Source of the DNA: an uncultured Mycoplasmatota bacterium
GTDB lineage: Bacteria > Bacillota_I > Bacilli_A > RF39 > UBA660
NCBI GenBank assembly: GCA_946553095.1
Contig: CAMNRN010000004.1
Location: forward strand, 1 to 38,889
Length of the DNA: 38,889 nucleotides
Direction of reading: 5' to 3'
The notes below the pieces were generated by a model. That model saw only the letters and a list, made by a program, of their open reading frames with translations. It did no database searches and had not been told where the DNA came from. Made by a program: the position numbers and the translations under genes. Shown piece by piece: positions 5,893 to 38,889 of this stretch (the stretch's first letter is position 1; every line of letters starts with the position of its first letter).

Positions 5893-5909
5893 TTATGGAG
5901 GTAATAGGA

Positions 5910-6860
5910 ATGAAAAAATACTTAACCAAAAGTATGATAAACAGTTTTCTATTATCTCTTCATTTATGTGAGGAAAAAACTGATGAGCTAACGATAAAAA
6001 AATTATATGCTATTAGTAACAATATAGAAAATAATTATCAAGTATTTTCAATCGAAAAGAAAAATAAAAAAATGCGTAAAATATATGCTCCAAATTATAA
6101 TTTGAAAAATATTCAAAAGAACATCTTACATAATATCCTTGAACAAATGCCTATATCACCTTATGCTAAGGCCTATATTCCTGGCGCCCATTTAAAAGAA
6201 AATGCCCTCCCACATTGTAGTAAAAGAATAATTTTAAAATTAGATATCAAAGATTTCTTTTCTAGCATAACCTTTGGTGAAGTATTGCGGAATTGTTTTT
6301 CTTACGATTATTTTCCTAATTCAATAGCTGTCCTATTAACTAAATTATGTACATATTATGATTATCTTCCTCAGGGAGCACCAACTAGTGCTTATATTTC
6401 CAACTTAGTATTAAAAGAATTTGATGAAGAAGTAGGAAAGTACTGTGATTCTAAAAATATTTCTTATACGCGATATTCCGATGACCTAACTTTTTCTGGA
6501 GATTTTTGCATAAGAGAAATAAAAAACTATGTAAAAAAAGAAATTTTAAAAAGAGGATATCTTTTAAACAATGAAAAAACTAAAGTAATAACTTGCAAGA
6601 ACAGGCAACAAGTAACTGGTCTCGTTGTTAATAAAAAAATTCAAACAAATAAAACTTATCGACATAAAATCAGACAAGAAATGTACTACATAAAAAAGTA
6701 TAGTTTAAAATCTCATCTTGAAAGATTAGGCATTGAGGATGAAAAAAAATACCTATTATCATTAAAAGGAAGAATAAATTATTGTCTTCAAATAAATAAA
6801 TTAGACCAAGAAATGAATAAATATATTAAAGACCTAGAAAGTTTACTACGAAAAATTTAA
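5910..6860 (+). CDS. ret: Retron reverse transcriptase
   Basis: 316 residues from the ATG at 5910, chosen because GGAGGT at 5897-5902 is its ribosome site; the ATG at 5895 overlaps that site. RT order: NALPH (98-102) matches the retron-specific NAxxH region X; LDIKDFF (111-117) carries the first metal-binding Asp; PQGAPTS (154-160) is RT domain 4; YSDD (189-192) is the catalytic box, where most retrons have YADD; VTG (235-237) is the retron-specific Y-region motif that recognises the msr hairpin. The length is typical and no effector domain is fused. A structured msr-msd RNA ends 18 bases upstream, making RNA and RT one transcript. Known retrons usually carry a toxin/effector; the next gene is the core methyltransferase ybxB with its own promoter, so none is evident. 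No strong terminator is seen after the gene. Confidence 0.95.
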   Translation: MKKYLTKSMINSFLLSLHLCEEKTDELTIKKLYAISNNIENNYQVFSIEKKNKKMRKIYAPNYNLKNIQKNILHNILEQMPISPYAKAYIPGAHLKENALPHCSKRIILKLDIKDFFSSITFGEVLRNCFSYDYFPNSIAVLLTKLCTYYDYLPQGAPTSAYISNLVLKEFDEEVGKYCDSKNISYTRYSDDLTFSGDFCIREIKNYVKKEILKRGYLLNNEKTKVITCKNRQQVTGLVVNKKIQTNKTYRHKIRQEMYYIKKYSLKSHLERLGIEDEKKYLLSLKGRINYCLQINKLDQEMNKYIKDLESLLRKI

Positions 6861-6941: not shown

Positions 6942-6973
6942 AAATGTATACGCAAAGAAAAGGGGAAGTGCCT

Positions 6974-22717: not shown

Positions 22718-24520
22718 TTATTCGACTGTTACAGATTTAGCCAAATTACGTGGTTTATCAATATCACAATCTTTATTTTTAGCTACTTTATATGATATTA
22801 ATTGTAAAGGAATAATCACAAGAATACTTTGTAAAATAGGGTGAACTCTAGGAATCAAAATAATTTCATCATAAAATTTTTCTTTAGGCATTTCTGTTGT
22901 AACATAGATAACTTTTGCCCCCCGAGCTTTAACTTCTTTAATATTACTAATTGTTTTTTCACGTAATTCATCTTTAGTTGAAAGGGCAATCACTGGCGTA
23001 TCTTCTTCAATCAAAGAGATAGTTCCATGTTTTAATTCTCCTGCTTGGTAAGCAACACTATTAATATAGGAAATTTCTTTCAACTTTAAAGATCCTTCCA
23101 TCGAAAGGGCATAATCGATATCTCTTCCAATAAAGAAAATATTTTGATGTTGAAAAACTTTATCCCCAATCATAAAATATTCTTGATTATCAACTATTTG
23201 TCTGATCAAGTTTGGCATTTTTTTAATATCTTCATAAATTTTATTTATTTGTTCATCTTTTAATAGTTTTCTTTGATAAGCAAAATAAATAGTAAGTAAA
23301 CTAAATATTGCCAGTTGAGCTAAATAGGCCTTTGTCGTTGCAACTGCAATCTCAATCCCGGCTTTAATATATATAACATGATCTGCTTCGCGCGCGATAC
23401 TACTACCGACAACATTCACGATTGCAAGTGTAGTAATTCCATCAGTTTTAGCTTTTCTTAAAGCTGCCAAAGTATCAGCAGTTTCGCCTGATTGTGACAC
23501 CAAGATAACTAAAGTATTATTATCATAAAAAGATTGTTTATATCTATATTCACTAGCAACTTCAACATTTACAGGCATAACAGCATATTCTTCAATTAAA
23601 CTTTTAGCAACAAGTCCAGTATGATATGCTGATCCACAAGCCACGATATCAATTTTCTTAAAATTACTTAAATCGGGAAAATTTTGTTTAAGAGAATCGA
23701 TTGATCCATCAAAATAAGAATGAATAGTTTCATAAAATACATTATCTTGTTCATGTATTTCTTTTAGCATAAAGTGTTCAAAACCTTGTTTCTGACCCGC
23801 TTCCATATTTCCTTCAAAAGTTAACAATTCTTTTTTTAATACTTCATTGTACTGATTATAAATCGTAACACTCTCATTTTTCAAAACCGCTATATCTAAA
23901 TCATCTAAAAGATAATACTTATTTGTAAATTCCAAAATTGCTGGAACATCTGAGGCAATAAAATTTCCTTCTTCGCCAGAAGCTACAATAAGTGGGCTCG
24001 AAAGCCTTGTAGCATAAAGGGTATCTTCATTATCATGAAATAAAATCCCAAGAGCAAAAGAACCTCGAATCATTTTACAAGACTTTTGAATTGTTTTCAA
24101 AACATCTTTTTCTTCTTTATAAACAAAATCGAGTAGGGCAGCCATAACCTCTGTATCCGTCTCTGATAAAAAAACATATCCGTTTTTCAATAAATCTTGT
24201 TTTAATTCAATATAATTTTCTATAATCCCATTGTGAACAATCGTAAATTTTCCTTGGGTATGAGGATGAGCATTAATTTTATTTGCCTCCCCATGTGTAG
24301 CCCATCTAGTATGTCCAATTCCTAAATGGCTTTCTGCCTCTAAATCAATTCTTTTTTTTAGATTCTCAATTCTTCCTTGTTCTTTAAAAGTATCTACTTT
24401 TCCTTTGTTAAAAATAGCAATTCCTGCTGAATCATACCCCCGATATTCAAGTGCTTCTAAACCATGAATAATTTTTGAAACACATTTGTCTTTGCCGACA
24501 TAACCGACAATTCCACACAT
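22718..24520 (-). CDS. glmS: Glutamine--fructose-6-phosphate aminotransferase (isomerizing)
   Basis: 600 residues. It makes glucosamine-6-phosphate from fructose-6-phosphate and glutamine, the first step to UDP-GlcNAc for peptidoglycan. The start is fixed by MCGIVGYVG: Cys2 is the nucleophile exposed after Met removal, so the in-frame ATG five codons upstream is wrong; GGAGG lies eight bases before the chosen ATG. The N-terminal Ntn glutaminase domain contains GHTRWATHG and HNGIIENY; the two SIS isomerase domains contain CGSAYHTG, SQSGETADT and the second ELKHGTISLI region; the end is KSVTVE, as usual. The message carries a glmS ribozyme, so glucosamine-6-phosphate should shut it down. Confidence 0.99.
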   Translation of the reverse strand: MCGIVGYVGKDKCVSKIIHGLEALEYRGYDSAGIAIFNKGKVDTFKEQGRIENLKKRIDLEAESHLGIGHTRWATHGEANKINAHPHTQGKFTIVHNGIIENYIELKQDLLKNGYVFLSETDTEVMAALLDFVYKEEKDVLKTIQKSCKMIRGSFALGILFHDNEDTLYATRLSSPLIVASGEEGNFIASDVPAILEFTNKYYLLDDLDIAVLKNESVTIYNQYNEVLKKELLTFEGNMEAGQKQGFEHFMLKEIHEQDNVFYETIHSYFDGSIDSLKQNFPDLSNFKKIDIVACGSAYHTGLVAKSLIEEYAVMPVNVEVASEYRYKQSFYDNNTLVILVSQSGETADTLAALRKAKTDGITTLAIVNVVGSSIAREADHVIYIKAGIEIAVATTKAYLAQLAIFSLLTIYFAYQRKLLKDEQINKIYEDIKKMPNLIRQIVDNQEYFMIGDKVFQHQNIFFIGRDIDYALSMEGSLKLKEISYINSVAYQAGELKHGTISLIEEDTPVIALSTKDELREKTISNIKEVKARGAKVIYVTTEMPKEKFYDEIILIPRVHPILQSILVIIPLQLISYKVAKNKDCDIDKPRNLAKSVTVE

Positions 24521-24546
24521 AATAAATTCCTCCATACAAAAATATT

Positions 24547-24682
24547 GTATGTGACTTACTTTTTGTTACAATCTTGATTTTGTTTTTTGTAAGCAAATCT
24601 AACGACTATACTAATCCCGTAATAACATCCGCCGAATATATTCGATAGTTATTATCCTCGTCAACCCTAAGGTTCTGGCGCT
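24547..24682 (-). promoter_or_regulatory. glmS ribozyme-riboswitch
   Basis: The minus-strand leader contains the conserved core in order: AGCGCCAGAACC with cleavage before the first G (complement of 24681), then GGTTGACGAGGAT, then ATCGAA and TTCGGCGGATG, then ACGGGA, and finally AAGTAAGTCACAT. The spacing matches known glmS ribozymes. Glucosamine-6-phosphate acts as the cofactor for self-cleavage, which leads to loss of the glmS message. The 3' boundary is approximate. Confidence 0.93.
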
Positions 24683-24725
24683 AACAATAATAATTTATCC
24701 TCCAATTTTCTTACTGTTTACTTTC

Positions 24726-30287: not shown

Positions 30288-30374
30288 GCTTGTATGGTGG
30301 AATTGGTAGACACGATGGACTCAAAATCCATTGGTAGTAATACTGTGTCGGTTCGAGTCCGACTACAAGCACCA
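30288..30374 (+). tRNA. tRNA-Leu (anticodon CAA)
   Basis: An 87-nt tRNA with encoded CCA. The acceptor GCTTGTA (30288-30294) pairs with TACAAGC (30364-30370), discriminator A, CCA at 30372-30374. The anticodon loop CTCAAAA lies in a TGGA/TCCA stem, giving CAA. The long variable arm expected of Leu is present, and the T arm has GTTCGAGTC. It decodes UUG. A TATACT box at 30263-30268 may serve as its -10. A terminator follows at 30387 and a recombinase remnant beyond that. Confidence 0.97.
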
Positions 30375-30386
30375 GATTGAATTTAT

Positions 30387-30406
30387 CCCCGTATGAACGG
30401 GGTTTT
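30387..30406 (+). terminator. Rho-independent terminator of tRNA-Leu
   Basis: CCCCGT (30387-30392) pairs with ACGGGG (30397-30402), 4-nt loop, then TTTT and further T-rich sequence. Confidence 0.9.
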
Positions 30407-30448
30407 ATTTTATTTAAATTTATTTTAGGACTTAATTTTATAAATTAT

Positions 30449-30562
30449 TTAAGTTTTCTTTTTCTTTTTAGGAAACATATGGTAGTAAGTTCGTTCATCC
30501 ATTTCAACTGTATCTCCAACTCTTTCAGCAACATCTCGAACATCACAACCTAGATAAACAAA
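30449..30562 (-). pseudogene. Tyrosine recombinase (integrase), C-terminal remnant
   Basis: Minus strand, 37 codons before TAA: FVYLGCDVRDVAERVGDTVE, then a stretch with ERTYYHMFPKKKKKT. This is the end of phage/ICE-type integrases: the GxDVxxVAERxGD helix and the TYxHxFP segment with the nucleophilic Tyr. Everything upstream of FVYLG, including the other catalytic residues, has no recognisable counterpart in the frame, and no start codon fits. It points away from the tRNA 3' end, a typical location for an integrase of an element inserted at a tRNA. The 30403-30886 gap holds otherwise only a leader with promoter. Confidence 0.65.
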
Positions 30563-30690
30563 TGGGGTGTTTATTTTAAAGTTGTTGTATATTGAAATAT
30601 ATTTTTAAAAAGCATAGTTGCAAAAGTTGTTTTAGAAATGAAAATTTAAAAAAATTTACATTCATATATAAATATGATAAAACTGTTTTT

Positions 30691-30720
30691 TTGACAAGTA
30701 TTCCAAAATTATGTTAATAT
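30691..30720 (+). promoter_or_regulatory. Promoter of the orphan gene at 30887
   Basis: TTGACA (30691-30696), 18-bp spacer, TAATAT (30715-30720) with extended -10 TG at 30712-30713. It leaves a long leader of about 160 nt. Confidence 0.6.
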
Positions 30721-30731
30721 GAATATGCCAA

Positions 30732-30821
30732 GTTAGCAATAAGACAAAGGACTTTAATAATAAAAGCTCTAATCTTTATAATATCAACTCGATTTAGTAA
30801 ACACACTTGAAGATTGCCAAC
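30732..30821 (+). other. Long-range complementary arms in an untranslated leader
   Basis: GTTAGCAAT (30732-30740) can pair with ATTGCCAAC (30813-30821) with one A-C mismatch, closing a loop of about 72 nt in the leader of the orphan gene. No known riboswitch class is recognised; the pairing could be chance. Confidence 0.3.
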
Positions 30822-30886
30822 GTATTTTTAAAATAAACTTGCAAAATGTAGTTTATAAAGTATTTTAGAATTGAGGTATAGAAAAT

Positions 30887-31771
30887 ATGTTTAGAGATAT
30901 TGAAATATTTATTGATCGTAATAAAGTTGATTTTGACTATGAAATAGATAAAGATAAAATAATTATTAAACTAATTGATGAACTAGAGATCGGAAAAGTT
31001 TTAAAAATATATTATGATGAAAACATATATGAGATAAAACCTAATGACAATAAAAAATTTAGTGAAGGCAAGGCAGGAGAGTTATTCATCAATTTGAATA
31101 TAAAAGAGTTATCTTTTTCCGTCGTATTAAAAAATAATTTTTTTGTCAAAAGTGTTTATAAATATATAAACAAATTAATTAACAAAGATACACTAATTAA
31201 TGAAATAAAAATATTTATGAATTCTGATGTTGGCAAAAAATACAAAGAAGATTTGAATATTTTATTAGACAATATAGAAAATAAAGATAAATCATTAGAA
31301 GAATTAATAATTAATAACGAAGATGAATACCAAAGAGTATTTGACTTAGTAATACATAATAAAACTTATATTAGTATTGCAGAGAATATGAGTGATTTAG
31401 AATTAATGCTTTTAATAACTTCTTACATTTTTGTCCCATTTACTCCGAATATAAATCAAGATTATTTTGATGATTTAGTAAAAGCTGCTGAGAATTATGA
31501 TAATGCTTTGGAAAATATATGGCGTCTAGGAATGAATTATGATTATAAAGGTTATAATTTTGATTTATTGGATAATTTCTTTGTAGATTCTAAAGACATA
31601 TATTATTTAGGTGAATATATAAGTGGCATTCATCAAACAAACCAAGAAAAAATAGTTAATGCAATACTGGCGACAAAAGATAAAGATTTTATAAAACGAA
31701 TTTTAGTCAGTGATTTAATTATCGACCATTTAGATGATAAATATAAAAATATTTTGGAATCTAGCATATAA
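30887..31771 (+). CDS. Orphan protein of unknown function
   Basis: 294 residues, acidic and very rich in Asn, Asp, Ile and Lys, with no signal peptide, membrane helix or Cys. I recognise no domain. The first about 85 residues are beta-rich with a DEN-DYEID opening; the rest is helical (LINKDTLINEIKIFM, then DNIENKDKSLEELI). It has a ribosome site GAGG seven bases before the ATG and a long leader with its own promoter. Composition is more AT-rich than the flanking housekeeping genes. It sits just beyond tRNA-Leu and an integrase remnant, so cargo of a decayed integrated element is a reasonable inference. No terminator is obvious after it. Confidence 0.75.
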   Translation: MFRDIEIFIDRNKVDFDYEIDKDKIIIKLIDELEIGKVLKIYYDENIYEIKPNDNKKFSEGKAGELFINLNIKELSFSVVLKNNFFVKSVYKYINKLINKDTLINEIKIFMNSDVGKKYKEDLNILLDNIENKDKSLEELIINNEDEYQRVFDLVIHNKTYISIAENMSDLELMLLITSYIFVPFTPNINQDYFDDLVKAAENYDNALENIWRLGMNYDYKGYNFDLLDNFFVDSKDIYYLGEYISGIHQTNQEKIVNAILATKDKDFIKRILVSDLIIDHLDDKYKNILESSI

Positions 31772-31815
31772 GAGTTTTATCTTTCTAGAATCATCAAGTT
31801 AAAGCCGAAGACAAC

Positions 31816-31844
31816 TTTACAGCCCAGTCATTTTTTTGTATAAT
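31816..31844 (+). promoter_or_regulatory. Sigma-A promoter of the gene at 31869
   Basis: TTTACA (31816-31821), 17-bp spacer, TATAAT (31839-31844), 24 bp before the ATG. AAAGGAGAG follows as ribosome site. Confidence 0.8.
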
Positions 31845-31868
31845 AATGTCTAAAAAAAGGAGAGAATC

Positions 31869-32570
31869 ATGGCTCGTGCAACAATAGAATACTTTTTTCG
31901 TATAATCGTCGAAATGAGTCACTTAGATGGAATTACTTTAAAAGATTATTATTTTTTAATAGAAATGTTAAAATACTTATCAAAAGAAGATTATTTATAT
32001 ATTGAAATATTAGATTTTATCGCTTTAGTTAAGAAAAAAATCTTTTTATATAGCAAAGAAGAAATAGCATTTGTAAAAGATAATACTGCACTTCTGCCTT
32101 TAATCATGGCAAACATAGAAAGTCCATACTATATAAATCCCCAGCATTATTACGTTTTTCCTAGTCAATTTAAAAGTGGAAGTAACATGAGTCTTAATGA
32201 TTTTCAAAATAGATTACATTGCTTTGGAACAAATCAAAATTATGATGTGATATCATATCTAGAAAGAGTTGAAAACTTATCTTTTAAAGAAACAATTAAT
32301 CTTCTAACTAGTATTTTTTTATTAACTTCAGAGCCGAGTGAAAAAAAACATTTAATCTATAAATATCAGGCAGTACTATTAAGTCCCGAGTACACTTTAG
32401 CTTTATCAAGAAAAATGAATAAAATATATCGTGATAAAGAATATTCTGAAAGTAAAGCTATCGAAGAGTTTTATCAAAATCGGTTCAATACAATAATGCG
32501 TGTTCGCCGAAAGGAAATTGACTCTAATTTTCAAAACAAAAGGGAAAATAAAAAAATTCAAATTCCCTAG
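31869..32570 (+). CDS. Hypothetical protein
   Basis: 233 residues, soluble, no signal peptide, family not recognised. The N-terminus (MARATIEYFFRIIVEMSHLD) and the following LKDYYFLIEMLKYLSKEDYL are helical. A central part holds IESPYYINPQHYYVFPS and a Cys/His-containing LHCFGTN; the C-terminus is strongly basic (RVRRKEIDSNF, then KRENKKIQ), which might contact nucleic acid. AAAGGAGAG lies six bases before the ATG, behind a good sigma-A promoter. It is followed after 17 bases by the DUF1848 gene, so the two probably share a transcript. Confidence 0.8.
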   Translation: MARATIEYFFRIIVEMSHLDGITLKDYYFLIEMLKYLSKEDYLYIEILDFIALVKKKIFLYSKEEIAFVKDNTALLPLIMANIESPYYINPQHYYVFPSQFKSGSNMSLNDFQNRLHCFGTNQNYDVISYLERVENLSFKETINLLTSIFLLTSEPSEKKHLIYKYQAVLLSPEYTLALSRKMNKIYRDKEYSESKAIEEFYQNRFNTIMRVRRKEIDSNFQNKRENKKIQIP

Positions 32571-32587
32571 TAGAAGAGGAGTAAGAA

Positions 32588-33475
32588 ATGATTTTAATAG
32601 TAAGTGGGAGAACAGATATTGTTGCATTTTACACTAAATGGTTTATCAATCGTTATCATGCTGGATTTGTCGATGTACGAAATCCTTACAATCCTAGCCT
32701 TATTAATCGAATATATTTTAAAGATGTTGATGCCATTTTATTTTGTACTAAAAATCCCACACCCATTCTTCCATTCATAGGTCAAATCAAAATACCGATG
32801 TTATTTCATGTTACTATTACACCATACCATCGAGATATTGAACCAAATGTCTTATCAAAAGAAAAAATAATTGAAGGCGTAAAAGAATTATCTAGGAAGA
32901 TCGGTAAAGAAAACGTTTATATAAGGTATGACCCAGTTTTTATAAATGATCATTATACGATTTCCTATCACATCAAAGCCTTTTCTAGGCTATGCGCATT
33001 GTGTGAAAACTACATAGATGGCTTTATATTTTCCTTTTTAGATAATTACAAAAATGTCCAAAAAAACTATCACATTTTGCATCCACACATATGGACCGAG
33101 GATATGTATAAAAAAATAGGACTTAACTTTAGTAAAATAGCTCTTAAGCATCATCTTTACATAAAGACTTGTGCTGAAAAAGAAAACTTAAGTAAATATG
33201 GCTTTATAAAAGGGGAATGTTTATCGCAAGAACTAGCCGAAAGATTAACAGGCAAATCCAAATTTAAAAAATGGAATGCCCGTAAAAATAAAAACTGTAA
33301 CTGTGTTGAAATGGTGGATATTGCTGCTTATAATACCTGCCAACATTTATGTGTTTACTGTTATGCCAATTATGCAGAAGAAAAAATAAAAGAAAATATT
33401 AAAAATCATGATGAAACATCCAGTGTTTTAATCGGTCATGTAAAAGAAGATGAAAAAATAATCATTAGACGTTGA
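32588..33475 (+). CDS. DUF1848 family protein, radical-SAM-like Fe-S protein
   Basis: 295 residues. The start MILIVSGRTDIVAFYTKWFINR and the segments DAILFCTKNPTP, FHVTITPYHRDIEPN and YIRYDPVF are the pattern of DUF1848. The C-terminal third carries NCNCVEM and CQHLCVYCYAN, which is a CX3CX2C cluster like that of radical SAM enzymes but at the opposite end from usual, plus earlier Cys. The domain is a TIM-barrel-like enzyme of unknown substrate; a link to DNA photolesion-lyase-like chemistry has been noted for relatives only by fold. AGAGGAG lies eight bases before the ATG. Confidence 0.88.
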   Translation: MILIVSGRTDIVAFYTKWFINRYHAGFVDVRNPYNPSLINRIYFKDVDAILFCTKNPTPILPFIGQIKIPMLFHVTITPYHRDIEPNVLSKEKIIEGVKELSRKIGKENVYIRYDPVFINDHYTISYHIKAFSRLCALCENYIDGFIFSFLDNYKNVQKNYHILHPHIWTEDMYKKIGLNFSKIALKHHLYIKTCAEKENLSKYGFIKGECLSQELAERLTGKSKFKKWNARKNKNCNCVEMVDIAAYNTCQHLCVYCYANYAEEKIKENIKNHDETSSVLIGHVKEDEKIIIRR

Positions 33476-33478
33476 GAC

Positions 33479-33488
33479 ATGTTATAAT
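33479..33488 (+). promoter_or_regulatory. Extended -10 promoter of the EamA-like gene
   Basis: TGTTATAAT (33480-33488), a TGn-extended -10 without a clear -35, 20 bp before the start codon at 33508. Confidence 0.5.
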
Positions 33489-33507
33489 AATCTAAGTGGT
33501 GATAACA

Positions 33508-34389
33508 ATGCAAGGAAAAAAAGCAGCATTTATGTGGTCGATATTTCATTCTCTGGCAGATACTATTGAAGATAATCTTTTAACTAAATTTGATGAAATA
33601 AAATATTTATTTTACGTTAATTTAATAACAGGAATATTTATTTTTATATATACTTTTTTTAATCCTATAGAAATATCTTTATTTTCATTTATAGCCATTA
33701 TATTTTATGCAATAGCCACAATTGGTGGTGATTTCTGCTACATCAAAGCTTTAAAAAATCTGCCGATTGGGCTAGCTAATTTGATTGACTCTGGTAGTGT
33801 CTTTTTAATTTTGTTATGCGATATCGCGGTCGGTTACATTACTCCTAGGTTCATTTTTTTCTTCCTTTTTTTAATTTATATTATATCAATCTATATTTTT
33901 TCTAAAGAGACTAATAAAATGAAAGAAGAGATAACTTGTAAAAAAATCGACTTAAAACAAATATTTATCTTAATTACTTCGACCATTTTTTATGCCGCGG
34001 TTCCATATTTTTTAAAAATAGCTTTAAAAAATGGCGCTAATGAAAGTGGCGTTAATTTTATTTATTATATTATAGCAATCACTTTTTTCTTCTTTCTATA
34101 TAAAATTCATCAAAAAAAGCATTGTATCAAAAAGGATGATTCAAAAAATCGTCAGTTTTTTATTAAAAACGTCTTATTTATAGGCTTCTTATTTTGTTTA
34201 ACTAGTCTTTTAAGTGTTTTAGCCTATAAAACAGCAGCTCCAGTTGTCGTAATGTTACTTATGAAACTGCAACTTTTCTTTGTCGTAATCATCTCAGTTA
34301 TTCGTCGAACTGATAAAATGAATTTAAAAAAGACCATTTCTTTAATAACTGGTATTATTTGTATAATTCTTTTAACTTGTTTAAATTAA
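33508..34389 (+). CDS. EamA-like drug/metabolite transporter family protein
   Basis: 293 residues from ATG 33508, with GGTGAT at the right distance; upstream in-frame GTG codons at 33496 and 33499 overlap that site. About ten hydrophobic segments are visible, in two halves of five, each ending in a charged loop, as in the DMT superfamily: first half with IKALKNLPIGLANLIDSGSVFLILLC and second half with AYKTAAPVVVMLLMKLQLFF. These PIG/APVV stretches are the membrane-repeat signatures. The substrate cannot be told. It is separated from the PIG-L gene by about 100 bp that hold a promoter. Confidence 0.85.
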   Translation: MQGKKAAFMWSIFHSLADTIEDNLLTKFDEIKYLFYVNLITGIFIFIYTFFNPIEISLFSFIAIIFYAIATIGGDFCYIKALKNLPIGLANLIDSGSVFLILLCDIAVGYITPRFIFFFLFLIYIISIYIFSKETNKMKEEITCKKIDLKQIFILITSTIFYAAVPYFLKIALKNGANESGVNFIYYIIAITFFFFLYKIHQKKHCIKKDDSKNRQFFIKNVLFIGFLFCLTSLLSVLAYKTAAPVVVMLLMKLQLFFVVIISVIRRTDKMNLKKTISLITGIICIILLTCLN

Positions 34390-34451
34390 ATATATTTTTC
34401 TGTCAAAAAGTGTCAACAAAATATGATAAAAAAATATATTTTTTCATGTAG

Positions 34452-34460
34452 TGGTATAAT
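34452..34460 (+). promoter_or_regulatory. Extended -10 promoter of the PIG-L/YfhO/aldolase genes
   Basis: TGGTATAAT (34452-34460), TGn-extended consensus -10, no clear -35, 26 bp before the ATG at 34487. Confidence 0.55.
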
Positions 34461-34486
34461 AAGAATAGAGTTTTAAAGGTGAAGTT

Positions 34487-35194
34487 ATGAATAAAAAAAG
34501 TATAATAGAAAAAAGTGCAATAGTTTTATTATTTTTAATTTTTGTGGCAACTAGCGCTTTTTTAATCAAAAGAAAACCTATAAATGTTGATAAAGATTTC
34601 ACTAAAATAAATTTAGACGATGCCAAAAAAGTGATGTTTGTTGCCCATCCAGATGATGATTCCATCTGGGGAGGAGCTCATCTATTAGAAGATGGAAAAG
34701 ATTATTTAGTAGTATGCATTACCTGTGGAGAAAGAGAAGATCGCGTAAAAGAATTTATTAGTGCGATGGAAAGAGTAGAAAGTCAATATATTATGCTTGG
34801 ATATCCTGACAAAACTAATGGAAAAAAAGATGATTGGCAAACATCTATTGAAAAAATTCATGCTGATATAGATGAAATTCTCCAATTAAAAACATGGGAT
34901 ATGATCGTTACTCATAATCCGGAGGGAGAATATGGACACATTCATCATAAAATGACTTCAAGTGCAGTGACCGAATTAGCCGATGTATCAAAGCTAATGT
35001 ATTTTGCCAAATATTATAAACCATCCCTTATCGATGATTATAAGGCTGATTTAAAAGAATTATCTGATGAATTATATCAGAAAAAATATGATTTAATCGG
35101 CGTATATAAAACGCAAGATTTCGTTTATGATATGTTCGGTCATATGTTTAGATATGAAAATTGGATTAAGTATGAGGATTGGAACAATGAGTAA
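34487..35194 (+). CDS. Membrane-anchored PIG-L (LmbE-like) family deacetylase
   Basis: 235 residues. One N-terminal membrane helix (about residues 10-27) is followed by a PIG-L domain. The zinc site reads AHPDDDS (His54, Asp56, Asp57) and, further on, EYGHIHHKM (His151 and His153/154), the typical set of zinc and catalytic residues. Family members remove acetyl groups from N-acetylglucosamine conjugates. The anchor puts it at the membrane, probably facing out, next to a YfhO-like membrane protein, so modification of a surface glycolipid or polymer is likely. The YfhO gene overlaps its last codons by eight bases. AAAGGTGAAG precedes the ATG. Confidence 0.92.
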   Translation: MNKKSIIEKSAIVLLFLIFVATSAFLIKRKPINVDKDFTKINLDDAKKVMFVAHPDDDSIWGGAHLLEDGKDYLVVCITCGEREDRVKEFISAMERVESQYIMLGYPDKTNGKKDDWQTSIEKIHADIDEILQLKTWDMIVTHNPEGEYGHIHHKMTSSAVTELADVSKLMYFAKYYKPSLIDDYKADLKELSDELYQKKYDLIGVYKTQDFVYDMFGHMFRYENWIKYEDWNNE

Positions 35195-37718
35195 GAGTAA
35201 AAAATTCACCTTAATAGATTATGTTAATCTTGCTATATTAACCATTATTTTTTTTCTTATTGTATTTCTAATTTTAAAAAAAGGCTATATTTTGGGGTCA
35301 ACAGTTGACTGGTCATCTCAACACATTGCTTTTCCCGAATATTTTCGCACTCTTTTTTTAGAAACTAAAGATCTATTTCCAGATTTTGCATTTAATCTAG
35401 GTGCAGGGCAAAACATATATAATTTTGCTTATTATGGATTACTAAGTCCAATCATCTTGATATCTTATCTTTTTCCCAAGATAAATATGGTTACTTACAT
35501 TATAGTTTCCAGTTGTTTTTTTATTTTACTTAGTGCTCTTTTATTTTACAAATTATTACGTAATCATTGTTATAATTCATACTTATCATTAATAGTTAGC
35601 ATTATATTTATGTGTGCCTCTCCTTTGATTTTTCACATGCACCGTCATATCATGTTTGTAAATTACATGCCATTTCTTATTTTAGGATTTTTCGGAGTTG
35701 ATAAATATTTTGAAAAAGACAAATCATGGTTGCTAATAATTAGCATTTTTCTGATGATTATGACTAGTTACTATTACTCAGTAGTCGGAATTATAGTTTT
35801 AACTATCTATGGAATATATACATATATAAAAAAGACTTCTCAAATAACCATAAAAGGTTTTTTCCTAGATGGATCTAAATTTGCTTTTCGCATCATCATC
35901 GGTATCCTTTTGGCAAGCATTTTAATCATTCCAACATTCTTAGTAATTTTAAACGGACGGGAAGCCACAACTGTATCAATTTCTCTAAAAGAAGTAATAA
36001 CTCCAGGTATTAACTTAGATTATATATTATATAAATATTATGGAATAGGGTTAGGTGCTATCACAATATTTGCTCTTATAAATAGTTTAACTAAAAAAAG
36101 AGAAAATCGTTTTATCGGTATCACTTTAATATTAGTTATATTATTTCCATTTATTAATTATTTATTTAATGCTACGATGTATATCGATGCTAAATCTTTA
36201 ATCCCATTTCTTCCTTTATATGTTTTATTAATAGCCTCATTTTTAAAAGATATTTATGAAGATAATACTAAATTAAAATGGATTATTCCAATATCAATCA
36301 TAATTCTTATCTTAGGAAAAAATACTTTAGGATCATTAGACAAAGCACTATATATAGATATCATTATCGTTTTAGGTGGTCTGTTTCTTTATAAAATCAC
36401 ACATTTAAAATGCTTATTAGGAATTAGTCTTGTTGTAATTAGTTGTTGTATCACCGTATTGTCTAGCCGTTTTGACAGCTTAGTGGAACGAGATTTATTA
36501 TATGGCAAAGATTATCATAATCAAAAAAATATTATTGAAGATATTACTAATAATGATTTTGGTCTATATCGTATTTCTAACCAAATAACTCCACTTGAAA
36601 ATACTAATCGGATATATAACAATATAAATTACTACAAAAATACATTATATTCATCCACATATAACAAGATTTATAACAAATTTTATTATGACATAATGAA
36701 TAATCCTATTCAAAGTCGTAATCGAGTTATCACAAGTAGTGCCAAAAATTATCCATTTTTACTCTTAATGGGAAACAAATATTTAGTTACAGATAAAAAT
36801 CCCTATCTAGGTTATACGTTATATAAAACGACTGACAACATCAATGTATATAAAAATGATTCCGTTTTGCCTCTTGCATATGCAAGAAGTGATACTATGA
36901 GCGAAGCACAGTTCACCGAGCTAGGTTATCCTTATAATCAAGAAGCTATTTTAAAAAATATAATAATTAATAAGGATGATTCAAAAGATTTTTCTCCGAG
37001 CATTCTCAAAAAAGACCTTGAATTAGACTTAAAACCCCTTAAAGAATTAAATATTGAAACCAAAAATGATATAACCACTATCAATATTGAAAAAGATCAA
37101 AAAATAAAATTGAAACTAAAAGAGAAACTTCATAATAAACTATTATATATTCACTTTGATCTTTTAGAAGATAATCCTTGCAGCATTGGTGACTCAATTA
37201 TCCGAATCAATGGTATAACTAACAAACTGACTTGTAATCCATGGAAATATCACAACAAGAATTTCACTTTTGATTACGTTTTAAGTGAAGAAAATATTCG
37301 CCAACTTACAGTATTTTTCAGCAAAGGAATTTATAAAATAAAGAATGTTGAATACTATATTTTGGATTATGAAGATATTAAAAATATCCGAGAAGATATT
37401 GATGAATTTCTAATAGATAAAGAAAAAACTAAGGGAGATAATATTGAAGGAAATATTTCCGTTAAAAAAGATGGGTATTTTACGATGAGTATTCCATATG
37501 ATCAAGGATTCACAGCCACTGTTGATGGAGAAAAAATACCAGTAGAAAAAGTAAATATGGGCATGATTGGCTTTCCAATAAAAAAAGGAAGCCATCATAT
37601 TAAAATAGAATATAAAGCACCAGGTAAGAAAATTGGCTTAATTTTATCTACAATGGGAATATTATTAACACTTGGAGCTATTGTATATGAAGAAAGAAGA
37701 GGGAAGAAAAATGATTGA
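35187..37718 (+). CDS. YfhO-like multi-pass membrane protein (GT-C-like glycosyltransferase)
   Basis: 843 residues from ATG 35187 (MSKSKKFTLIDYVNLAILTI); the in-frame ATG 20 codons earlier lies deep inside the PIG-L gene and lacks a ribosome site. The first about 430 residues contain a dozen or so membrane helices with an early external loop (STVDWSSQHIAFPEYFRTLF), holding the acidic residue after the first helix typical of GT-C enzymes. The last about 350 residues are an external domain ending in one more helix (IGLILSTMGILLTLGAIVY) and a basic tail. YfhO in Bacillus glycosylates teichoic acid or related polymers. It overlaps the aldolase start by eight bases. Confidence 0.9.
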   Translation: MSKSKKFTLIDYVNLAILTIIFFLIVFLILKKGYILGSTVDWSSQHIAFPEYFRTLFLETKDLFPDFAFNLGAGQNIYNFAYYGLLSPIILISYLFPKINMVTYIIVSSCFFILLSALLFYKLLRNHCYNSYLSLIVSIIFMCASPLIFHMHRHIMFVNYMPFLILGFFGVDKYFEKDKSWLLIISIFLMIMTSYYYSVVGIIVLTIYGIYTYIKKTSQITIKGFFLDGSKFAFRIIIGILLASILIIPTFLVILNGREATTVSISLKEVITPGINLDYILYKYYGIGLGAITIFALINSLTKKRENRFIGITLILVILFPFINYLFNATMYIDAKSLIPFLPLYVLLIASFLKDIYEDNTKLKWIIPISIIILILGKNTLGSLDKALYIDIIIVLGGLFLYKITHLKCLLGISLVVISCCITVLSSRFDSLVERDLLYGKDYHNQKNIIEDITNNDFGLYRISNQITPLENTNRIYNNINYYKNTLYSSTYNKIYNKFYYDIMNNPIQSRNRVITSSAKNYPFLLLMGNKYLVTDKNPYLGYTLYKTTDNINVYKNDSVLPLAYARSDTMSEAQFTELGYPYNQEAILKNIIINKDDSKDFSPSILKKDLELDLKPLKELNIETKNDITTINIEKDQKIKLKLKEKLHNKLLYIHFDLLEDNPCSIGDSIIRINGITNKLTCNPWKYHNKNFTFDYVLSEENIRQLTVFFSKGIYKIKNVEYYILDYEDIKNIREDIDEFLIDKEKTKGDNIEGNISVKKDGYFTMSIPYDQGFTATVDGEKIPVEKVNMGMIGFPIKKGSHHIKIEYKAPGKKIGLILSTMGILLTLGAIVYEERRGKKND

Positions 37719-38583
37719 AGAATTAAAAAATAAGAAAGGTTTTATCGCGGCTTTAGACCAAAGTGGGGGAAGCAGCAAAAAAACGTTAGCTAACTATGGA
37801 ATCGAAAATGTTCAAAATGATGAAGAAATGTTCCAAAAAATCCATGAAATGCGATCAAGAATAATTAGAAACGAAGCTTTTACATCATCACATATTTTAG
37901 GTGTAATTTTATTTAAGCATACGATGGATAATCCAATCGATGGTAAAAACACGGTACTTTATTTAAAAGAAAAAAACATTCCAGCCTTTTTGAAAATAGA
38001 TGTTGGCTTAGCAGAAAAAGAAGATGGGGTAGAACTTCTAAAAGAAATTCCTAATTTAGAAACCCTTTTAGAAGAAGCTAAAAAAAATGGTATCATCGGA
38101 ACCAAGATGCGTTCTGTAATTCATGAATACAATGAATTTGGTATCAAACAAGTAATCGAACAACAATTCACATTAGCCAAAACGATTATCAAAAAAGGTT
38201 TGATTCCTATCATTGAACCGGAGGTCGATATTAACTCTACAAGTAAAATGCTTATTGAAACATTTATGAAATCTGTTATTAGAAATGAACTAAATAAAAT
38301 GGCTCCAGAAGATTATGTTATTTTTAAATTTACATTGCCAGAAAGAGAAAATTTCTATGATGATTTATTAAAGTTTAAGAATGTTTTAAGAATTGTTGCT
38401 TTATCTGGTGGCTATTCTAAAGATGTTGCTTGTGAAAAGTTAAAACAAAATAAGAAAATGACAGCTAGTTTTTCGAGAGCCTTTTTGGAAGGTCTAAACG
38501 TCAGTCAAACTGAAGAAGAATTTACAGTAAACTTAAAAAGCAACATTGAGGAAATATATAGTGCTTCTGTCAATAAAATTTAA
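37711..38583 (+). CDS. fda: Fructose-bisphosphate aldolase class I
   Basis: 290 residues from ATG 37711; an in-frame ATG 13 codons earlier lies in YfhO. The N-terminal KKGFIAALDQSGGSSKKTL is the class I bacterial aldolase start. Further stations are GVILFKHTMD, IPAFLKIDVGL, GTKMRSVI, IPIIEPEVDI and VIFKFTLPE (Schiff-base Lys region), then ALSGGYS, which binds phosphate; the order is complete. It cleaves fructose-1,6-bisphosphate to triose phosphates without metal. GAGGGAAG lies seven bases upstream. It overlaps YfhO by eight bases, so an aldolase is translationally coupled to envelope genes. A strong terminator follows. Confidence 0.95.
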   Translation: MIEELKNKKGFIAALDQSGGSSKKTLANYGIENVQNDEEMFQKIHEMRSRIIRNEAFTSSHILGVILFKHTMDNPIDGKNTVLYLKEKNIPAFLKIDVGLAEKEDGVELLKEIPNLETLLEEAKKNGIIGTKMRSVIHEYNEFGIKQVIEQQFTLAKTIIKKGLIPIIEPEVDINSTSKMLIETFMKSVIRNELNKMAPEDYVIFKFTLPERENFYDDLLKFKNVLRIVALSGGYSKDVACEKLKQNKKMTASFSRAFLEGLNVSQTEEEFTVNLKSNIEEIYSASVNKI

Positions 38584-38612
38584 GAAAATCAACAAATAGA
38601 TTTTCTTTTTTT
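38582..38612 (+). terminator. Rho-independent terminator of the aldolase gene
   Basis: AAGAAAATC (38582-38590) pairs with GATTTTCTT (38599-38607) around an 8-nt loop, T run to 38612. Confidence 0.88.
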
Positions 38613-38683
38613 CATCCCTTCAAAGTGTCAAGTTATGACAATTTACATCAAAATTAAGAAAAATTTCCAAAAAAATATAGAAG

Positions 38684-38699
38684 TTTTTTTTTTTTTTTT
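38684..38699 (+). repeat. Sixteen-T homopolymer tract
   Basis: T16 at 38684-38699, directly before a weak TTGTAA (38698-38703) to TGTAAT (38722-38727) promoter candidate for the last gene. Tracts this long are prone to slippage. Confidence 0.9.
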
Positions 38700-38719
38700 G
38701 TAAAATGGTCATAGTAGAG

Positions 38720-38755
38720 AGTGTAATCAATTAGAAAAAAAGATTACTTTACACT
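38720..38755 (+). promoter_or_regulatory. Leader inverted repeat with two alternative pairings
   Basis: AGTGTAA (38720-38726) pairs with TTACACT (38749-38755); alternatively GTAATC (38723-38728) pairs with GATTAC (38742-38747). The two stems share bases, so only one can form. It ends four bases before the ribosome-site region of the exported-protein gene. Confidence 0.45.
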
Positions 38756-38774
38756 TGGGAAGGAATATATATTT

Positions 38775-38889
38775 ATGAAAAAGAAGAAACTAATCTTGGC
38801 AGTGGCGATACTAACTCTTATCATGGTCGTAATTGGAGCAACATATGCCTATTTTGTCGCTCAAACGGGATCGGGTCAAAGTGCTAATA
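38775..38889 (+). CDS. Exported protein, N-terminal part (cut by window end)
   Basis: 38 codons run off the right edge. The product begins MKKKKLILAVAILTLIMVVI and continues GATYAYFVAQTG: a very basic start, a long hydrophobic core, and an ATYAYF segment close behind it. This GATYAYF signal is common to Firmicutes surface or TasA/camelysin-like proteins processed by SipW-type peptidases, and to some other exported proteins; the rest is needed to tell. AAGGA at 38760-38764 lies about 10 bases before the ATG. A T16 tract and an inverted repeat lie upstream. Confidence 0.75.
   Translation, partial: MKKKKLILAVAILTLIMVVIGATYAYFVAQTGSGQSAN

Follow-up and report, generated by a model that had tools for sequence, protein, structure and literature searches.

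How did a short piece of a tyrosine recombinase gene come to lie beside a tRNA-Leu gene in an uncultured Mycoplasmatota bacterium, and does the gene that follows it share its origin? The window, by which we mean the whole stretch of 38,889 nt analysed here, is contig C4 of a 1.30-Mb genome (97 contigs, 93.5% completeness). An RpoB search returned mostly metagenome genomes of uncultured Bacilli, the best segment reaching up to 91% identity, and the scpB DNA of congeners is 68-78% identical to that of the window. A same-species strain, whether with an intact or an empty site, was absent from the comparison set. A pentapeptide protein gene, scpB and scpA lie on the other side of the tRNA from the recombinase fragment. 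The features of the locus are as follows:

30288-30374, plus strand: tRNA-Leu(CAA) (ARAGORN; Rfam RF00005, 61 bits), its 3' end being the presumed attachment site
30375-30451, minus strand: spacer between the tRNA and the integrase fragment (stop codon included), the presumed element end, with a match to a profile of 16 spacers at 30377-30439
30387-30402, no strand assigned: hairpin CCCC-GTATGAAC-GGGG with a T-rich stretch after it, resembling a terminator, read by eye from the sequence and alignment
30425-30435, minus strand: repeat-like motif in one copy (minus-strand sequence TAAGTCCTAAA), read by eye from the alignment
30449-30559, minus strand: C-terminal 36 codons of a tyrosine recombinase (30452-30559) and their stop codon (30449-30451)
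30560-30886, no strand assigned: non-coding stretch from the break point to the next gene, with a longest wholly internal stop-to-stop frame of 45 codons
30887-31771, plus strand: gene for a 294-aa protein of a patchily distributed family (homologue searches), a possible passenger

The fragment consists of the residues VYLGCDVRDVAERVGDTVEMDERTYYHMFPKKKKKT, 36 codons within a 51-aa stop-to-stop frame and approximately the last tenth of an integrase gene. Compared with 16 longer integrases it scored 68.2 bits, against at most 24.6 bits when its residues were shuffled 100 times, and the resemblance thus exceeds chance. An earlier note on this DNA had recognized a C-terminal scrap of a tyrosine recombinase; the identification was right, and the length of 37 codons given there has to be corrected to 36. 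The identity to six integrases is 73-84% over 31-36 residues (68% for a seventh), and the integrase gene of the congener G169 shares 80% of its DNA sequence with the fragment over 110 nt (E 3e-22). At the DNA level, homology to several loci stops at approximately position 30561. At E 0.001 and with the own genome included, matches were found in 4 of 145 genomes of the family and 23 of 385 genomes of the order. Outside the own genome the five top matches (75-81% identity) lie in open frames, four of 374-385 aa and one of 294 aa, and the homologue in G447, a genome of another genus, has the Pfam domains Phage_integrase, Arm-DNA-bind_4 and Phage_int_SAM_3. What the window keeps of the catalytic C-terminal domain is the last 36 codons, which are homologous to this family and are not scored by Pfam. 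NCBIfam gave no match either, and a PHROG scan, which covered the fragment and the proteins encoded at 30887 and 31869, gave for the fragment one match at chance level (E 0.27). The fragment has no further match in its own genome, though eight places with Phage_integrase are present there. The plasmid collection, searched by protein, contained no match, and the phage collection yielded two records, both belonging to a single Erysipelothrix phage, SE-1 (36% identity, E 0.1), which were not used. Two further C-terminal scraps of the same integrase, in frames of 79 and 113 aa, were seen in other genera (L065 and L066); in L065 the scrap is followed by what appears by eye to be a part of tRNA-Phe.

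The genomic context of the homologues was surveyed at 20 loci fetched around the order-wide fragment matches. At 16 of them the strand opposite to the integrase carries a tRNA or tmRNA gene, and 97-158 bp separate the 3' end of this gene from the point where the fragment homology ends. The targets are 11 different RNA genes: tRNA-Asn (two loci), Ser-GCT (three), Ala, Leu-CAA, Leu-TAG, Thr-GGT (two), Thr-CGT, Arg-CCT, Phe (two) and His, and tmRNA. Thirteen of the integrase frames at these loci have 368-410 aa, and the others are broken or short (239 aa in L163, 88 aa in L172, no frame in L174). As for the other four loci, L168 and L178 show no RNA gene before the contig end (~136 and 258 bp beyond the match), in L171 the integrase gene and a tRNA-Leu(GAG) share a strand, and in L176 there is no RNA gene within 400 bp. 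Between the integrase stop codon and the tRNA most loci show, by eye, a tandem repeat of ~11 bp and then a hairpin.

The window has the same layout, the 3' end of the integrase fragment facing the 3' end of the tRNA over a short spacer with hairpin and repeat-like motif. In the alignment (by eye) its hairpin occupies the position of the hairpin at the other integrase loci, and its single motif stands where these usually have two tandem copies; we infer that the motif is a putative integrase binding site. From the tRNA 3' end to the stop codon of the fragment there are 74 bp, in agreement with the ~75 bp noticed earlier. The layout distance of 78 bp is below that of the other loci because of a gap in the last integrase codons. 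An unrelated gene family covering the integrase frame in relatives, which would have refuted the reading of the earlier note, was not seen.

For a nucleotide profile built from the 16 spacers of the relative loci, the best match in the window is 30377-30439 (E 1e-6), and the second-best has E 0.2; composition biases the score (24.5 bits, bias 18.3). The 3' flanks of tRNA-Leu(CAA) in congeners served as control. From 24 loci one (L048, flank of 56 nt) was excluded by the length filter, and none of the 23 flanks searched scored, the best E being 2.9 versus 1.8e-6 for the window. Similarly, the integrase fragment had no match at E 0.001 at the 24 congener loci. Several congeners have different hairpins 3' of tRNA-Leu(CAA) (by eye), and therefore the hairpin of the window probably arrived with the element. 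In a literature search we found no paper linking tRNA terminators with integrases, which is not proof that such a link is unreported. An RNA family known to Rfam was considered for the region 30375-30886 and rejected, as none reaches its gathering score there. At two of the 24 congener loci a recombinase of another type lies 3' of the tRNA: in L039 a large serine recombinase with the Pfam domains Resolvase and Recombinase, and in L043 its shortened N-terminal part. L044 shares its flank with L043.

At three of the 16 loci the tRNA 3' end recurs downstream of the integrase gene as a repeat of 17-19 bp, which marks the limits of an element:

L160 (genome G470): tRNA-Asn, 17-bp repeat, 8.8 kb
L164 (genome G447): tRNA-Leu(CAA), 18-bp repeat, 9.3 kb
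L173 (genome G317): tRNA-His, 19-bp repeat, 2.9 kb

The L173 element is perhaps itself reduced. At the remaining 13 loci no tRNA-end repeat of at least 12 bases was detected within the ~1-10 kb of sequence examined. Beyond the repeat of L164, in a genus other than that of the window, lie a gene for a pentapeptide protein (Pfam) and, by eye, scpB and scpA. The tRNA-Leu(CAA) of the window is oriented oppositely to that of L164 relative to scpB, and such an inversion was also noticed for L054. The comparison with relatives that had been proposed earlier thus revealed an intact element at tRNA-Leu(CAA) beside scpB. Since the homologues share the tRNA-facing layout and an element is delimited at this very tRNA, the locus very probably preserves one end of an integrative element, site-specific in its insertion and now decayed, as the earlier note had supposed. 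Counted against this explanation are the second repeat missing from the window, element ORFs without a match, the distance of the congeners and the composition bias of the spacer score.

A second copy of the tRNA 3' end further downstream, for which the earlier note had suggested a search, is absent from the window: no 10-mer is shared, and 18-mer and 16-mer probes found no copy with up to three mismatches before the contig end at 38889. The missing attR fits a relic rather than a complete element, and the far site could also lie beyond 38889. When 30 ORFs of the three delimited elements were compared with 30375-38889, only the three integrases matched, and no relaxase was found. The missing repeat would also suit a chance import of the fragment together with DNA of other origin, unconnected with any insertion at tRNA-Leu(CAA). 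However, the spacer abuts the tRNA 3' end, arranged as at the other loci, and we regard such a chance arrival as highly improbable.

Under the preferred explanation, a decayed integration site, the question arises how far foreign DNA extends. The stretch 30560-30886 is indeed the long non-coding leader described earlier. In blastn against the set of loci it gave short AT-rich matches only, the best one (29 nt, E 1.6e-4) elsewhere in the own genome, and it has a short likeness, by eye only, to the upstream region of the homologous gene in G109. The protein encoded at 31869-32570 (plus strand) contains a region like the DnaG zinc ribbon (Pfam 24.3 bits, just below the cut-off of 24.9); with its matches to a PHROG DNA primase (E 2.8e-6) and TIGR01391 (E 6e-6, far below the cut-off), it is weakly similar to DnaG and phage primases and is not a whole primase. 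Foreign DNA may therefore reach beyond 30887. For the DUF1848 gene at 32588, 17 of 30 genomes of the genus (own included) gave matches, which in the other genomes always lie on a different contig from tRNA-Leu. A counterpart of the aldolase gene at 37672 lies, by eye, 2.4-3.4 kb after tRNA-Leu(CAA) at 10 of the 24 congener loci, which suggests that chromosomal sequence resumes by 37672; the stretch between tRNA-Leu and this gene is not conserved.

Two features elsewhere in the window deserve mention. A reverse transcriptase (5895-6860, plus strand) is close to the models of Ec107-like retrons (PADLOC RT_Ec107-like, E 6e-121; NCBIfam retron_St85, 228 bits, below the cut-off of 235). It is preceded by ~260 bp without a listed gene and followed by a protein gene at 6944 with a partial PADLOC mad2 match (E 1e-16) and by rpoB. 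A glmS ribozyme (24544-24693, minus strand; Rfam RF00234, 66.4 bits) is located upstream of the gene at 22718-24535.

The gene at 30887 had been called an orphan, a description that no longer holds: at E 0.001 and with the own genome included, homologues are present in 23 of 291 genomes of the family and 7 of 30 of the genus, and at E 1e-40 in 11 of 385 genomes of the order. In a tree of these 11 family members seven of the eight inner branches were open, and identity tables were used instead. The comparison with ScpB comprised 10 genomes, since G399 has no ScpB match, and gave a rank correlation of 0.05 between the two identities over 45 pairs. The homologues in G109, G324 and G404, which represent three genera, are 85-86% identical, compared with 49-63% for ScpB; the ScpB of G109 is divergent from all others (46-50%), and for G324 and G404 alone the values are 86 versus 63. 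For G324 and G374, which belong to one genus, they are 75 versus 83, and within the genus of the window 57-65% versus 75-80%. As judged from these sequences, identity in the 30887 family does not follow kinship, and the family has been transferred between genera.

In four of the 11 genomes the distance from the 3' end of a tRNA or tmRNA gene down to the start of the 30887-family gene is no more than 1.1 kb (512 bp in the window, 171 bp in G109, ~1.1 kb in G163 and 218 bp, from tmRNA, in G391). The other seven have no RNA gene that near, the contigs of G164 and G324 starting 530 and 868 bp upstream, respectively. With 292 tRNA matches, one assumed tmRNA per genome and ~13.1 Mb, p for such proximity by chance is ~0.025; the probability that at least three of the 10 other genomes show it by chance is ~0.002, for a limit of 1.1 kb that was set after the data were seen. 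At E 1e-3, none of the 10 other loci of the 30887 family contains this integrase, and none of 26 integrase loci contains the 30887 family. This evidence is circumstantial, and the proposal that the gene was cargo of the lost element may be correct, the vicinity of tRNA and tmRNA genes speaking for it and the lack of shared loci against it. It is tempting to speculate that the family is a specialised passenger of elements targeted to tRNA or tmRNA genes, repeatedly deposited beside tRNA genes and retained after decay, possibly protecting the host or excluding further elements, but we consider this doubtful.

Searches for the nature of the protein itself were negative: no relatives were found in the genome_contigs and viral_contigs collections, no solved structure matched the 11-member alignment at E 1, and PADLOC reported nothing. 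A single-sequence AlphaFold model (mean pLDDT 48.3, pTM 0.33) was too poor for use. A mini-element flanked by att sites around the gene was also considered and rejected, because G109 and G163 have no downstream tRNA-end repeat of at least 11 bases, and G391 has only one 11-mer, which comes from the flank. By eye, an AT-rich stretch around TTGTCAAGGAAACTTGCATAAAATAAA precedes the homologues of G164 and G163 (L126, L127), and a similar one is found 3' of tRNA-Leu(CAA) in G164 (L053).

To which class did the lost element belong? The earlier note had suggested a phage or an ICE; the relic stands, and a mobilizable element and a phage are both candidates. The L164 element encodes the integrase, a Mob_Pre relaxase, which we take to be of the MobV type, and an AAA_25 ATPase (Pfam); towards its far end there are, by eye, genes for an HTH regulator and for exported proteins. 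The best order-wide match to the fragment (81%) belongs to the 8.8-kb element of G470; by eye, the proteins of this element that look like a relaxase and an ATPase are similar to those of G447. It is thus possible, if short of probable, that the relic stems from a mobilizable element of ~9 kb with a Mob_Pre relaxase and that the 30887 gene is retained cargo of its far end. Such an element occupies tRNA-Leu(CAA) in G447, the 30887 gene is directed away from the tRNA like the far-end genes of the G470 and G447 elements, and its family, which is transferred between genera, is followed in G109 by a Mob_Pre-like fragment (25.1 bits, just below the cut-off of 25.5). However, neither a relaxase nor another gene of such an element matches 30375-38889, the 30887 family and this integrase do not share loci, and an integrase from a phage contig is an equally good match. 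The latter, on the IMG/VR contig L180 (84% identity over 31 residues), is accompanied by genes for an anti-repressor, Erf, an exonuclease and a DnaD-like loader, and on the same side L162 and L169 carry genes for Erf or DnaB. A temperate phage with this integrase family is accordingly a source that we propose tentatively, the 30887 gene then being a neighbour or a phage passenger; the primase-like protein at 31869 would suit it. Against it stand the relaxase of the element delimited at tRNA-Leu(CAA) and the scope of the PHROG scan, limited to the fragment and two proteins of the window. Because the integrase family is found on both relaxase elements and phage contigs, the fragment cannot tell the class of the lost element.

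The review PMC5704250 describes mobilizable elements that carry one tyrosine recombinase and are located at tRNA 3' ends, together with their decay and accretion; its table places NBU1 and MTnPi4 at tRNA-Leu. Like the integrative mobilizable elements of that review, the window combines a tyrosine integrase with a tRNA 3' end as target that is kept intact; since these elements have direct repeats and decayed copies are common, it fits as a remnant. Unlike them it has only an integrase tail and one end, and no relaxase or second att site was found. With phages of the L180 type, which carry Arm-DNA-bind_4, Phage_int_SAM_3 and Phage_integrase, it shares the integrase family, but no phage gene is established in the window. 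As in a CIME, defined in the same review as an element without integration and transfer genes that retains attL and attR (PMC5704250), mobility genes were lost after insertion; in contrast to a CIME, no attR was found in the window.

Directly observed are the homology to integrases, the layout beside the tRNA, the break point and the lack of a second repeat in the window. The history that we infer from the locus starts with site-specific recombination: an element with an integrase targeting tRNA 3' ends would have inserted at tRNA-Leu(CAA), leaving the tRNA intact and placing its own end, with hairpin, repeat and integrase 3' end, beside it. A deletion from inside the integrase gene (break at ~30561) outward, rather than a replacement, would then have removed the rest, including the far att site, and a further small deletion would have scrambled the last dozen or so integrase codons. 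The remainder would be inert.

In summary, a scrap of 36 codons that was found by eye and is scored neither by Pfam nor by NCBIfam marks a real integration site. The locus is otherwise an ordinary relic, a common type of genomic fossil. It seems that the end of the element supplies a hairpin of its own beside the tRNA, where congeners have other hairpins. Beyond the window, one integrase family of uncultured Bacilli is linked to 11 tRNA and tmRNA targets, to relaxase-bearing elements and to phage contigs.
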